Below the pieces are notes generated by a model. That model worked only from the letters and a program-made list of their open reading frames with translations. It ran no database searches and was not told where the DNA came from. A stretch of 64,000 nucleotides of DNA from a gamma proteobacterium symbiont of Stewartia floridana (lineage in GTDB: Bacteria > Pseudomonadota > Gammaproteobacteria > Chromatiales > Chromatiaceae), in contig NAUB01000016.1 in NCBI GenBank assembly GCA_003676145.1, positions 1 to 64,000 on the forward strand, written 5' to 3'. How positions within the stretch are numbered: position 1 is the first letter of the stretch; the number at the start of each line of letters is the position of its first letter. The position numbers and the translations under genes were made by a program. Of the stretch, positions 56,098 through 62,718 are shown one piece after another.

Positions 56098-57447
56098 CTA
56101 TTCAGCGGCCTCTGCCCGGTTAACCTGAGCCACAGGCGCGGAAAATCTTCCCACCTGTACTCTGACCAGACGTTCCGAATCGACCCGGCGTTTGAAAGCA
56201 TCGCGGATCTGCTCTTTGCTCACTGCCTCGATCCGCTCGACAAACCGATCGAGATAATCGAGAGGCAGATCGTAGAAACCGATTACCGCCAGATATTCGA
56301 CAATCTTGCCGTTGGATGCGATGCGTAGCGGAAACCCGCCGGTGATATTCTGTTTCGCTGCCTTCAGCTCCTCATCGGTCGGCCCCTCAGTGATGTAGCG
56401 CTGCAGGGTATCCTTGACCACTTTCAGCGCCTCATCCGCCTGTTCATTTTTGGTCTGCAAACCAACCTGGAAGAGGCCCAGTTGACGCATCGGAATGAAG
56501 AAACTGTAGACGCTGTAACTCAAGCCACGTTTCTCCCGTACCTCCTCGCTCAGCAGCGAAACCAGTCCGCTGCCACCAAGAATATGATTCCCCACATAGA
56601 GCGGAAAGTAGTCCGGGTCACCCCGCTTAAGGCCAGGTTGTCCCAGATAGAGATGGGATTGGGTTGATGGAAAGGGGATCTGCTTGATCACCCCTTGATC
56701 GAGTGGCGGCACCGGCGGCAGAGCTGGCATGGCTTCCCCCGAAGGCAGCCCACCCACCGCCTCTTCGGCGATAATTGCAGCAAGATCTTCATCCACCGCA
56801 CCGACGATCGCAACCACCGCATTCTTGGCCACATAGAGTCGCTGATGGGTCTTTACAATCTCTTCCCGGGTGATCGACTCGACCGACTCGCGGGTTCCCG
56901 AAGGATCCGAAGCGTAGGGATGTGTGCCATAGACCAGTTCATAGAGTTGCTTTTTACCGACACTGCCGGGGGACTGCTCATCCTGCAGAAGACCCGCCAG
57001 TATGGATTGACGCTCCCGTTCGATATCCTCCTGGTTGAAGCTGGGAGTTGCCAGGATTGCCGAGAGGGTTTGCAGGGATGTATCCAGGACTTCCGGCTCG
57101 ATCAGGGATCGCACGGCGACCCAGGCCATATCCCTTAAAGATCCCGACTCCAGCTGTGAACCCACCCCTTCGATGCGTTGCGCGATCTGAAACGCATCCC
57201 ACTTCCCCGCGCCTTCGGTCAACAGGCTGTTGGTAAAGGAGGTGATACCGGCTCTATCCCCATCTCTGGAGCTGCCGGCATCGAACACGACCCGCACATC
57301 GACCATCGGGATTTCCGGCGCATGCACGTACAGTACCTTGGCCCCGTTGCCGGTTTGCCAGGTCTCGATTTTAGGCGAGGCCTGCAGCAGGCCCGCAAAG
57401 CCGATTATCGCACCCAGTAGCAGCAGACGCAGTGTGTTATTGACCAT
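56098..57447 (-). CDS. M16-family peptidase-like protein lacking the zinc motif
   Basis: 449 residues from the ATG at 57447 (GGAGGTCGTC upstream, overlapping the partner gene by 11 bases). A signal peptide precedes two M16 domains. Where the active partner has HxxEH, this protein has FTNSLLTEGAG, so the zinc site is missing. The R/Y pair region of the second domain (GGFPLRIASNGKIVEYLAVIGFY, in part) is kept, as in the non-catalytic chain of bacterial M16 heterodimers. It probably pairs with the neighbouring peptidase in the periplasm. Confidence 0.9.
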   Translation of the reverse strand: MVNNTLRLLLLGAIIGFAGLLQASPKIETWQTGNGAKVLYVHAPEIPMVDVRVVFDAGSSRDGDRAGITSFTNSLLTEGAGKWDAFQIAQRIEGVGSQLESGSLRDMAWVAVRSLIEPEVLDTSLQTLSAILATPSFNQEDIERERQSILAGLLQDEQSPGSVGKKQLYELVYGTHPYASDPSGTRESVESITREEIVKTHQRLYVAKNAVVAIVGAVDEDLAAIIAEEAVGGLPSGEAMPALPPVPPLDQGVIKQIPFPSTQSHLYLGQPGLKRGDPDYFPLYVGNHILGGSGLVSLLSEEVREKRGLSYSVYSFFIPMRQLGLFQVGLQTKNEQADEALKVVKDTLQRYITEGPTDEELKAAKQNITGGFPLRIASNGKIVEYLAVIGFYDLPLDYLDRFVERIEAVSKEQIRDAFKRRVDSERLVRVQVGRFSAPVAQVNRAEAAE

Positions 57448-58801
57448 GACGACCTCCTGCAGCGGAGTGACGTGTGGTGTTCTCTTCCATCGGTAGGGGC
57501 TCCAATACGGCGACCGTGAGATTGTCATCGACCAGATACTTCTCAGCCACCTGCTTGACCTGCTCGGCGGTGACGGCCTTCAGTTTGTCCACATACTCGT
57601 CGCCAAGACGCCAATCGAGGCCAACGGTCTCCAACTGTCCGATCAGCATCGCCTGGTAAAACACAGAATCCTTCTCGAACACCTTCGAAGCGGTAATCTG
57701 TTTGCGCACCCGCGCCATCTCTTCATCGGTAACCAGCTCTGTCTTGAAGCGGTCGAGCTCTTTCAGGATGGCTCTCTCGACAGTCTCGATCGGGGTACCC
57801 GGCCTGGGTACTGCATCGAGCACCAACATGCCCGGCAGACGGGTGAAGGCGTTGTAGCTGGTATCCACCGAAACCGCCAGTTCACTGCCGCGAATCAGGT
57901 TACTGGCCAGGCGGGCACTGGCGCCGCCATCGAGAATGTAGGACAGCATCTCCAGCGCATAGGGCTCCCAGTCCTGATCTGTTTTACCGATCACCGGGGT
58001 TTTGAATCCCATCACCATATAGGGTTGCCGCGCCGGCACCTTCAGGGCCATCCGCTTGACGCCTCTTTGTGGCGGCTCCTCTCTCGGCTTGTTGACCGCC
58101 ACCGGCTCCGGCTTGAGTACACCGAAGTAGCGCTCTGCCAGGCGAATCACCTGATCCGGTTCCACATCCCCGACAACCACCAGGGTGGCGTTGTTGGGGG
58201 CATACCACTTGCGGTACCAGACCTGAAGATCCTCCACCTGCAGCGAGTCCAGATCGGACATCCAGCCAATCACTGGTATCCGGTAGGGTGAAGCCTGGTA
58301 GGCACCGGTAAGAAACAGCTCGTAGGTCAGGGACTGGGGCTTGTCTTCGGTGCGCATTCGCCGCTCCTCCTTGACCACCTCAACCTCTTTTTTGAACTCC
58401 GCTTCCTGCAGCTGAAGATTTCTCATTCTGTCCGCCTCCAGCTCGAAGGAGACCTCCAGGCGGTCACTCGCGAGCGTCTGATAGTAGGCGGTATAGTCAC
58501 GGCCGGTAAATGCGTTCTCGTTGCCCCCGTTGGCGGCAACGATGCGGGAAAATTCGCCAGGGGCGAGGTTGTCGGTCCCCTTGAACATCATATGTTCGAG
58601 CACATGGGAGACACCGGTAATCCCGCCATGTTCGTAACTGGAGCCGACCTTGTACCAGACCTGGGAGACCGCAATCGGTGCCCGCTTGTCCTGTTTCACG
58701 ATCACCTTCATCCCATTCTTCAGCTGGTGTTCCACCACACTGGCCTGTGCTTGAGCCGCGGCCATCAGCATCAGCATGAAAGTCGTCATCAATCTTCGCA
58801 T
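57437..58801 (-). CDS. M16-family zinc peptidase
   Basis: 454 residues from the ATG at 58801, chosen for AAGGA upstream and the signal peptide MRRLMTTFMLMLMAAAQAQA; the frame extends further upstream. The zinc site HVLEHMMFKGTD (HxxEH) is intact, with the downstream Glu in EFKKEVEVVKEERR. It is the active chain of a periplasmic M16 pair; such enzymes degrade small peptides or process envelope substrates. It lies directly upstream of and overlaps the inactive partner gene. Confidence 0.92.
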   Translation of the reverse strand: MRRLMTTFMLMLMAAAQAQASVVEHQLKNGMKVIVKQDKRAPIAVSQVWYKVGSSYEHGGITGVSHVLEHMMFKGTDNLAPGEFSRIVAANGGNENAFTGRDYTAYYQTLASDRLEVSFELEADRMRNLQLQEAEFKKEVEVVKEERRMRTEDKPQSLTYELFLTGAYQASPYRIPVIGWMSDLDSLQVEDLQVWYRKWYAPNNATLVVVGDVEPDQVIRLAERYFGVLKPEPVAVNKPREEPPQRGVKRMALKVPARQPYMVMGFKTPVIGKTDQDWEPYALEMLSYILDGGASARLASNLIRGSELAVSVDTSYNAFTRLPGMLVLDAVPRPGTPIETVERAILKELDRFKTELVTDEEMARVRKQITASKVFEKDSVFYQAMLIGQLETVGLDWRLGDEYVDKLKAVTAEQVKQVAEKYLVDDNLTVAVLEPLPMEENTTRHSAAGGRHGQ

Positions 58802-59091
58802 TAAGGTGTTCCTTATCATCATTATCAGTCTTTTAATGCCTCGAGCAGGCCCGATCGATCGAGCATCCGCATCCCCCAGCGGACAACGGCACTTTAACAT
58901 TGCCCTGGAGGACCTGTAGAATAGCGCCGGCGACAGCCCGCAGGCATTGTTTCAGAGGCCTGAAGGATTGTCCAAAATGGCTCCAGGCACAACGATTGAC
59001 ACAGCAACTGAGACCATCACTTTCAGTCACGGTGTTAGTAAGAACCTGCGATCAGTTTAGAGTTCCAATCACCCCATTGGTGTTGCCCAGT

Positions 59092-60098: not shown

Positions 60099-60782
60099 TT
60101 GATTCATTTTGACAATGTCAGCAAACGCTATCCGGGTGGTCATACCGGACTGAGTAACATCAATCTGCGCATCGACGCGGAAGAGATGGTCTTTCTTACC
60201 GGCCATTCAGGCGCCGGCAAAAGTACCCTGCTGAAACTGATTGGCTTGCTGGAACGCTCCAGTGGCGGACAGGTGCATGTCAACGGTCGCAATCTGACCC
60301 GGCTGAAGAACCGTCAGATCCCCTATCACCGCCGCGAGGTGGGTATGATTTTTCAGGACCATCGCCTGCTGCATGACCGCACCGTATTCGACAATGTGGC
60401 CCTGCCCCTGGTGGTCTCCGGACTGGGTCATAAAGAGATTGGCAGAAGGGTTCGGGCCGCACTCGACAAGGTTGGTCTGCTGCATAAGGAGAAGAGTGCC
60501 CCGGTGACCCTCTCGGGCGGTGAACAGCAGCGTGTCGGTATTGCCCGCGCAGTGGTCAGTAAACCACCTCTGGTACTGGCGGATGAGCCCACCGGCAATC
60601 TGGATCCGGAACTGTCGAAAGAGATCATGGAGCTCTTCACTCAGTTCAACAAGGTCGGGGTTACCCTGCTTATTGCCACCCATGACCTGGCCCTGGTGAG
60701 CAGCATGAATCAACGCATTCTGACACTGACCAACGGCGCATTGAGTCATGACAGCAAGACGGAGTACCGGGATGTCACTTAA
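60099..60782 (+). CDS. ftsE: Cell division ATP-binding protein FtsE
   Basis: 227 residues starting at TTG 60099 (AGGA just upstream, five bases after the ftsY stop). Walker [15 protein letters not shown]-loop FQDHRLL, signature [14 protein letters not shown] and Walker [13 protein letters not shown]. With FtsX it drives EnvC/amidase activation at the septum. Confidence 0.96.
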
Positions 60783-61716
60783 GTCTCGACTCTTTTCAAT
60801 GCCGGGAATATGGTTACAGAGACATGCCCAGGTGGCCCTCTCGAGCCTTGGCAGACTGGTGGGGAATCGCCTCTCCTCTTTGATGACCTGTGCGGTTATC
60901 GGCATCGCGCTGGCGCTGCCGGTTGGACTGCATGTGATGCTCAGCAACCTCAACACAATCAGTGGCGGATGGGAGAGCGGTGCCAGCATCTCCCTGTTCC
61001 TGGATCAGAGCATCAGCAGTGAGAAAGCCCGCTCCCTGGCTGAAACACTGCGTCAGCACACGCGTATCGAAACCGTCGAGCTGATCAATCGGCAAACCGC
61101 ACTCGAAGAGTTTCAACGCCTCAGCGGCTACGCGGACGCACTCCAGGCCCTCGATAGCAACCCACTGCCCAATCTGCTGGTCATTCAACCGAAAGCTGAA
61201 TACACCACCGCTGAGACAGCCGAGCAGCTCGCCCAGGAGCTGAGACTGCTGCCGGAGGCGGATATCGTTCAACTCGACCTGCAATGGGTCAGGCGTCTGC
61301 AGGCCATCACAGTGATCGCGCAACGGGCCGTGGTGGTTCTGGCGGCTCTGCTCAGCATGGCGGTTTTATTGATCGTGGGAAACACCATCCGGCTGGAGAT
61401 CCAGAACCGCCGTACCGAGATCGAGATCACCAAACTGATCGGCGCCACCAACGCTTTCATCCGCAGACCCTTTCTCTACACCGGATTCTGGTATGGCCTG
61501 TTCGGCGGGTTGATCGCCTGGTTTCTGGTTGCCCTGTCGTTGATTCTGCTGAGCGGCCCCATCGCCAAGCTGGCCCAGCTCTACCAGAGCTCGTTCGATC
61601 TAAGCTCTCTCGACCCAATCACAGTCCTGGTACTGTTATCCGGTAGCGCCCTGTTGGGACTGACCGGCTCCTGGCTTGCGGTCGGTCGTCATTTGAGCGC
61701 GATTGAACCAAGCTAG
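60772..61716 (+). CDS. ftsX: Cell division protein FtsX
   Basis: 314 residues from the ATG at 60772, overlapping ftsE by 11 bases. Cytoplasmic N-terminus, a membrane helix near 40-60, an extracytoplasmic loop (about 60-180) and three later helices; NRRTEIEITKLIGATNAFIRRPF is the conserved coupling segment. Partner of FtsE. Confidence 0.95.
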   Translation: MSLKSRLFSMPGIWLQRHAQVALSSLGRLVGNRLSSLMTCAVIGIALALPVGLHVMLSNLNTISGGWESGASISLFLDQSISSEKARSLAETLRQHTRIETVELINRQTALEEFQRLSGYADALQALDSNPLPNLLVIQPKAEYTTAETAEQLAQELRLLPEADIVQLDLQWVRRLQAITVIAQRAVVVLAALLSMAVLLIVGNTIRLEIQNRRTEIEITKLIGATNAFIRRPFLYTGFWYGLFGGLIAWFLVALSLILLSGPIAKLAQLYQSSFDLSSLDPITVLVLLSGSALLGLTGSWLAVGRHLSAIEPS

Positions 61717-61810
61717 AGTCAATTAGAACTAACTACTTGATTCGGCAAAGATAAAACCACACATACCCTATTGAACTTTCTGCCGCATAACCGGTCAGAA
61801 TGGTCAGTTA

Positions 61811-61837
61811 TTGGCACTCCTGCGTAGAGAGTGCTAA
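61811..61837 (+). promoter_or_regulatory. CIRCE-like HrcA operator overlapping the rpoH promoter
   Basis: TTGGCACTC (61811-61819), a 9-base spacer, GAGTGCTAA (61829-61837). The CIRCE consensus is TTAGCACTC-N9-GAGTGCTAA; 17 of 18 arm bases agree and the spacing is exact. The right arm runs into an extended -10 (TGCTAATAT, TAATAT at 61835-61840), and TTGGCA at 61811 could be the -35 with an 18-base spacer. It ends 33 bases before the rpoH ATG. Confidence 0.85.
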
Positions 61838-61869
61838 TATTTCACCTGAAGCAATCTGGGGTAACCTGC

Positions 61870-62718
61870 ATGAGTAAAGAGATCGCACTGACAACCTTGC
61901 CCACAGGCAACATGGACAGCTACATCAGCGCTGCATTTCAGCTGCCGATGCTGAGTGCCGAAGAGGAGTACTCACTGGCGGTTCGCCTGCGTGATCAAAA
62001 AGACCTCCAGGCGGCCCAGACCCTGATCACATCCCACATCCGTTTCGTTGTGCGTATCGCCAGAAACTACAGCGGTTACGGACTGGCCCTGCCCGATCTG
62101 ATTCAGGAGGGCACTGTCGGCCTGATGAAGGCGGTCAAGCGTTTTGACCCGGAGATGGGCGTCCGTCTGGTCTCCTTTGCGGTGCATTGGATCAAGGCTG
62201 AAATCCATGAGTTCATTCTGAAGAACTGGCGCATCGTCAAGGTGGCGACCACCAAGGCGCAACGCAAACTCTTTTTTAACCTTCGCAGCTCGAAAAAACG
62301 CCTCGGCTGGTTTTCCAAAGAAGAGGTCGACAGCGTCGCCCAGGATCTTGGTGTGAAACCGGAAACCGTACTGGAGATGGAGTCCCGGCTTTCCGGTCAG
62401 GATATCGCTTTTGATGGCCCGAGCCAGGAGAGCGATGACCAGGTAACGGCGACACCGGCTGGCTATCTCAGCGACATGCGCATGGAGCCCGCCTCGATGC
62501 TGGAAGCGGTGGACAGCGAAAGCCAGATGAAACAGAAGCTGATGAGCGCCATCCAGGCTCTGGATGAGAGAAGCCGGCAGATTCTGGAAGCACGCTGGTT
62601 GAGCGACAAGAAATCCACCCTGCATGAATTGGCAGACAGATTCCAGGTTTCGGCTGAGCGCATCCGCCAGATTGAGCAGGGTGCCATGAAGAAACTGAAA
62701 TCCCAACTTGCCCTATAG
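61870..62718 (+). CDS. rpoH: RNA polymerase heat-shock sigma factor RpoH (sigma-32)
   Basis: 282 residues from the ATG at 61870. Sigma-70 family regions 2 to 4: [39 protein letters not shown] (region 2; the RpoH box [13 protein letters not shown] follows), region 4 [34 protein letters not shown] is the diagnostic RpoH-box segment. It directs heat-shock transcription and follows ftsYEX, as in E. coli. Confidence 0.97.

Follow-up and report, generated by a model that had tools for sequence, protein, structure and literature searches.

Repression by HrcA and activation by sigma-32 are commonly presented as separate strategies for running a heat-shock response, and the region in front of rpoH in the window analysed here (the whole stretch of 64,000 nucleotides) raises the question of whether one of them may sit on top of the other. 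A sequence-only reading of this DNA had proposed a CIRCE element, the operator of HrcA, directly upstream of rpoH. The gene order at the locus is ftsE-ftsX-rpoH, with ftsX, the upstream neighbour, at 60748..61716 on the plus strand (an open reading frame scoring 365 bits against TIGR00439) and rpoH, encoding sigma-32, at 61870..62718 on the same strand (TIGR02392, 402 bits against a cut-off of 323). A probable ribosome binding site, GGGG, was read from the sequence at 61858..61861 (plus strand) and lies in the same place in the genus genomes displayed. Opposite to ftsY-ftsE-ftsX-rpoH, at 56098-58900 on the minus strand, two adjoining open reading frames resemble M16-type zinc peptidases.

Positions 61811-61837, between ftsX and rpoH, read TTGGCACTC-CTGCGTAGA-GAGTGCTAA on the plus strand. 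Compared with the CIRCE consensus, TTAGCACTC-N9-GAGTGCTAA, 17/18 arm positions are matched, and the spacer (61820-61828) between the left arm (61811-61819) and the right arm (61829-61837) is exactly 9 bases long, precisely as had been proposed. The placement ahead of rpoH was likewise correct, although the distance from the end of the element to the ATG at 61870 measures 32 bases and not the 33 first given. Within the window this is the sole CIRCE match at three or fewer mismatches, and shuffled sequences average 0.02. The whole 4.55 Mb genome holds three CIRCE sites at one mismatch or fewer, and all three precede core heat-shock genes, namely groESL, hrcA-grpE-dnaK-dnaJ, and rpoH, so that the search for further operators that the earlier reading had recommended yielded the two classical ones. 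Three weaker matches (L004-L006) carry 3 mismatches, a level at which the reversed-pattern control matches as well. A chance match at rpoH was considered and is ruled out by the shuffles and by there being just three such close sites in the genome. The repressor on which the proposal depends is encoded by a single, intact hrcA gene (TIGR00331, 334 bits against a cut-off of 197) with both DNA-binding and C-terminal domains.

The nearest named relatives belong to Candidatus Thiodiazotropha, whose members are sulfur-oxidising symbionts of lucinid clams; this is the genus referred to throughout, and its named RpoH relatives are 82-89% identical. CIRCE lies 31-36 bases before the rpoH start in 22/22 genus genomes, all of which have in common an A-to-G deviation at CIRCE position 3, with one extra mismatch in two of them. 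Taking the commonest base at each position, its frequency across the genus averages 0.99 for either arm, 0.68 for the spacer, and 0.54 for the 30 bases upstream; past the right arm it averages 1.00 over the next three bases and 0.65 beyond them. Conservation of both arms among close relatives had been named as a decisive check, and the arms are indeed almost invariant while the spacer and flanks drift. With this arm match and spacing, an hrcA gene in the genome, a promoter position at a heat-shock gene, and conserved arms, the element at 61811-61837 is a CIRCE by every feature open to sequence comparison, and its role as an HrcA operator is predicted.

The operator also appears to contain a promoter. 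A consensus scan finds a sigma-70-like promoter at 61811..61840 on the plus strand, with a -35 hexamer TTGGCA (61811-61816), an 18-base spacer, and a TG-extended -10 hexamer TAATAT (61835-61840), which bears out the extended -10 that had been noted as overlapping CIRCE. Both hexamers overlap the arms, TTGGCA lying in the left arm and TAATAT beginning in the right. The TAT directly after the right arm is present in 22/22 genus genomes, and the A-to-G deviation that all of them share moves the left hexamer nearer to TTGACA, from which we infer that the change may carry selective meaning. A -10 of the form TAANNT would require T as the third base past the right arm, and 47/57 non-redundant rpoH sites outside the genus have it there, whereas none of 21 groES CIRCE sites of related genomes does, their flank being nearly always CA(G/A); this oriented comparison relies on groES sites, just one hrcA control site being orientable by motif. 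The groES sites have a constant context of their own, unlike that of the rpoH sites, in which CTTGAC...CTATTA precedes the element and CA(G/A) follows its right arm, and which may represent a combined sigma-32/sigma-70 promoter.

The first description of the promoter region was incomplete, in that it overlooked a second element beside the operator. The consensus for sigma-E promoters is GGAACTT, about 16 bases, and TCNNA, and the P3 promoter of E. coli rpoH is sigma-E-dependent. A pattern match places a sigma-E-type promoter at 61773..61799 on the plus strand, comprising a -35 GAACTT (61773-61778), a 16-base spacer, and a -10 TCAGA (61795-61799); the extended match, TGAACTT-N16-TCAGA, spans 61772-61799, directly upstream of CIRCE, and the predicted start falls at about 61805-61807, a few bases ahead of the left arm. 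The strict pattern occurs at 19/20 non-redundant rpoH sites of the genus, with GAAC 35-38 bases before CIRCE, and at 37/57 non-redundant rpoH CIRCE sites outside it. At 25 of these 37 the two elements are interlocked, with GAAC exactly 15 bases before CIRCE and a 16-base spacer, such that the -10 TCNNA straddles the boundary between arm and spacer, two of its bases coming from the end of the left arm and three from the start of the spacer; the Thiodiazotropha promoter lies about 20 bases farther upstream than this form. Shuffled upstream sequences contain the strict pattern on average 0.15 times (genus) and 0.47 times (others), at most 3 and 4 times, and it was found in 0/80 control readings (40 non-rpoH CIRCE flanks of the groESL/hrcA type, both strands). 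Chance as the source of the motif is ruled out by these shuffles and controls. The same strict pattern is also seen in 21/53 named upstream regions of rpoH genes that have no CIRCE (shuffles 0.8). The GAACTT-type -35 and TCNNA -10 therefore stand above chance and in a fixed place, and the genome encodes rpoE (TIGR02939, 317 bits against a cut-off of 236), adjoined by an rseA-like gene whose product carries an RseA N-terminal domain.

It could be argued that the HrcA operator is genuine, but that the one promoter of consequence is the sigma-70-like promoter overlapped by it, the GAACTT element being minor or unused. Together with its TG extension, TTGGCA-N18-TAATAT makes a reasonable sigma-70 promoter, the TAT after the arm is invariant across the genus, and the strict sigma-E pattern is missing in the genus genome G017 and at 20/57 of the other sites. 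Against this, the sigma-E pattern exceeds shuffled expectation well, keeps a fixed register, and is absent at CIRCE sites of the groESL/hrcA type, which makes a solely sigma-70-dependent rpoH unlikely, though it is the strongest of the competitors to combined control by both promoters under HrcA.

That the operator at rpoH belongs with HrcA is indicated by its distribution, with class taken in the GTDB sense. Among 50 named gammaproteobacterial genomes, an rpoH CIRCE is present in 25/26 with hrcA versus 1/24 without it, and in a phylum-wide draw the figures for the same class are 11/12 and 0/32. The compared genomes share ancestry, so that these counts do not represent independent events, and the Fisher values, which take no account of this, are purely descriptive. 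The single hrcA-positive exception among the named genomes is Nitrococcus mobilis, and the single hrcA-negative genome with the site is a 1.7 Mb MAG. In the other classes of the draw, 2/34 hrcA-bearing genomes have an rpoH CIRCE; two genomes outside the class, G139 and G229, show a CIRCE-like site before rpoH, which may have been inherited from an ancestor, acquired by transfer, or arisen convergently. Relatives beyond the genus have the site in 18/22 cases with hrcA and 4/9 without, the latter four comprising two genomes that are 62-69% complete and two that are 97-98% complete. Two nearly complete genomes, G031 and G050, combine CIRCE at rpoH with no detected hrcA, for which gaps in the assembly, a recent loss of the gene, or a repressor that has diverged may account. 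Five genomes carry hrcA and show no CIRCE in the 350 bases preceding rpoH (G023, G025, G029, G047, and L052, which is Nitrococcus mobilis); these are apparent losses of the link between hrcA and rpoH, and its absence from Nitrococcus mobilis and from four relatives that have hrcA makes the rpoH CIRCE evidently dispensable. The predicted operator at rpoH is nevertheless typical of hrcA-bearing gammaproteobacteria and not peculiar to this genome. Because it tracks hrcA within the class and is rare outside, HrcA control of rpoH looks like a class trait of gammaproteobacteria that disappears along with hrcA. A second, weaker CIRCE-like palindrome adjoins the main one upstream of rpoH in G044 (TTAGCAGTC-N9-GAGTGCTAA), L089, G024, G030, and G028, and its position in G024 and G030 is downstream of the main CIRCE, where it terminates in TGCTAATATAATA; tandem HrcA sites may thus be common at rpoH.

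The same distribution bears on whether the repeat might act in RNA, as a hairpin of the rpoH mRNA serving as a stability element or thermometer when transcribed from the upstream promoter. RNA begun at the predicted sigma-E start would include the whole repeat, and its 9-base arms could pair across the 9-base loop, a role that could coexist with HrcA control. The reading is not favoured because the arm letters follow the CIRCE consensus; they are conserved instead of covarying, and the presence of the repeat follows hrcA, leaving the hairpin very improbable as the explanation. Least probable of all is retention of the palindrome merely as promoter hexamers without HrcA, for although its outer arm bases coincide with the -35 and -10 hexamers, the inner bases CACTC and GAGTG are nearly invariant where sigma-70 promoters are unconstrained, and gammaproteobacteria lacking hrcA lack the palindrome at rpoH.

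The model that best accommodates these observations, and which is probably correct, is that HrcA gates both sigma-E- and sigma-70-driven transcription of rpoH through CIRCE, so that rpoH is released together with groESL and the dnaK operon. In the unstressed cell, HrcA would occupy CIRCE and repress rpoH transcription, covering the sigma-70-like promoter contained in the operator and, in the interlocked form, the sigma-E -10 as well. In Thiodiazotropha, HrcA may instead block the start of polymerase at, or its escape from, the sigma-E promoter, because the predicted sigma-E start sits just before the operator. In other bacteria HrcA is known to be released while GroE is occupied, and misfolded protein occupying GroE, or inactivation of HrcA by heat, would likewise cause HrcA to leave CIRCE here, freeing groESL, hrcA-grpE-dnaK-dnaJ, and rpoH jointly, after which sigma-32 would supply a second wave. 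Expression of rpoH would then require both that active HrcA be absent and that a housekeeping or envelope-stress polymerase be available, and the circuit would close as negative feedback in which GroE supports HrcA, HrcA lowers rpoH, and sigma-32 raises the chaperones. The nesting of circuits proposed at the outset, with sigma-32 itself under HrcA, gains support from the intact hrcA, the conserved arms, and the tracking of hrcA, from which we infer repression.

If HrcA does gate rpoH over a sigma-E promoter, both systems would be stacked, with the folding state of the cytoplasm licensing how sigma-32 responds to envelope stress. The textbook circuit of E. coli might then be a reduced version from which the upper layer has been lost. 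Extended to all gammaproteobacteria that keep HrcA, the proposal is that rpoH forms a third standing member of the HrcA regulon, with an interlocked sigma-E promoter through which folding state licenses envelope-stress input, and that lineages such as Pseudomonas, Halomonas, and Pasteurellaceae have shed the repressor along with its operator, so that their rpoH now lacks the HrcA layer; for this wider claim the chances appear evenly balanced. The prediction that HrcA controls rpoH would be simple to test in culturable gammaproteobacteria.

The closest known arrangement is that of Geobacter sulfurreducens, in which a CIRCE upstream of rpoH was predicted in 2004 (Rodionov et al., Table 8; PMC545781). 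As here, HrcA operators are listed at rpoH, groESL, and hrcA-grpE-dnaK-dnaJ, and the distance to the start is similar (-51), but Geobacter sulfurreducens is a single deltaproteobacterial species whose tabulated relatives have no rpoH site, whereas the site described here is class-wide in hrcA-bearing gammaproteobacteria; the relevant passages of that report also mention no sigma-E promoter, an element whose pattern is present at the rpoH CIRCE here. To the question left by the sequence-only reading, whether such a site had been described in related genomes, a literature search for CIRCE at rpoH, its reach ending short of HrcA regulon surveys of beta- and gammaproteobacteria and of regulon databases, returned this one deltaproteobacterial prediction and no gammaproteobacterial one. 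Permina and Gelfand reportedly treated the HrcA regulons of beta- and gammaproteobacteria in 2003, and theirs would be the likeliest source of any earlier gammaproteobacterial report.

Compared with the familiar control of groESL and hrcA-dnaK operons by HrcA and CIRCE, the operator type and the repressor are identical, and sites for both operons exist in this genome, but the target at the rpoH site is the heat-shock sigma factor itself. The surroundings differ as well: groES sites are preceded by CTTGACT...CTATTA and followed by CA(G/A), rpoH sites preceded by GAACTT and followed by NNT. In Helicobacter, HrcA sites are known that lie close to or across -35 and -10 elements (PMC6032397). In Vibrio, sigma-E binds and drives rpoH promoters (PMC4890791), and these, like E. 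coli P3, resemble the present promoter in their GAACTT-type -35, spacer of about 16 bases, and rpoH target, a likeness that extends to the ftsE-ftsX-rpoH neighbourhood. The Vibrio and E. coli promoters are described without an HrcA operator, whereas here the promoter adjoins or enters CIRCE. What seems new relative to these systems is the breadth of the rpoH CIRCE in gammaproteobacteria and its interlock with a sigma-E-type promoter.
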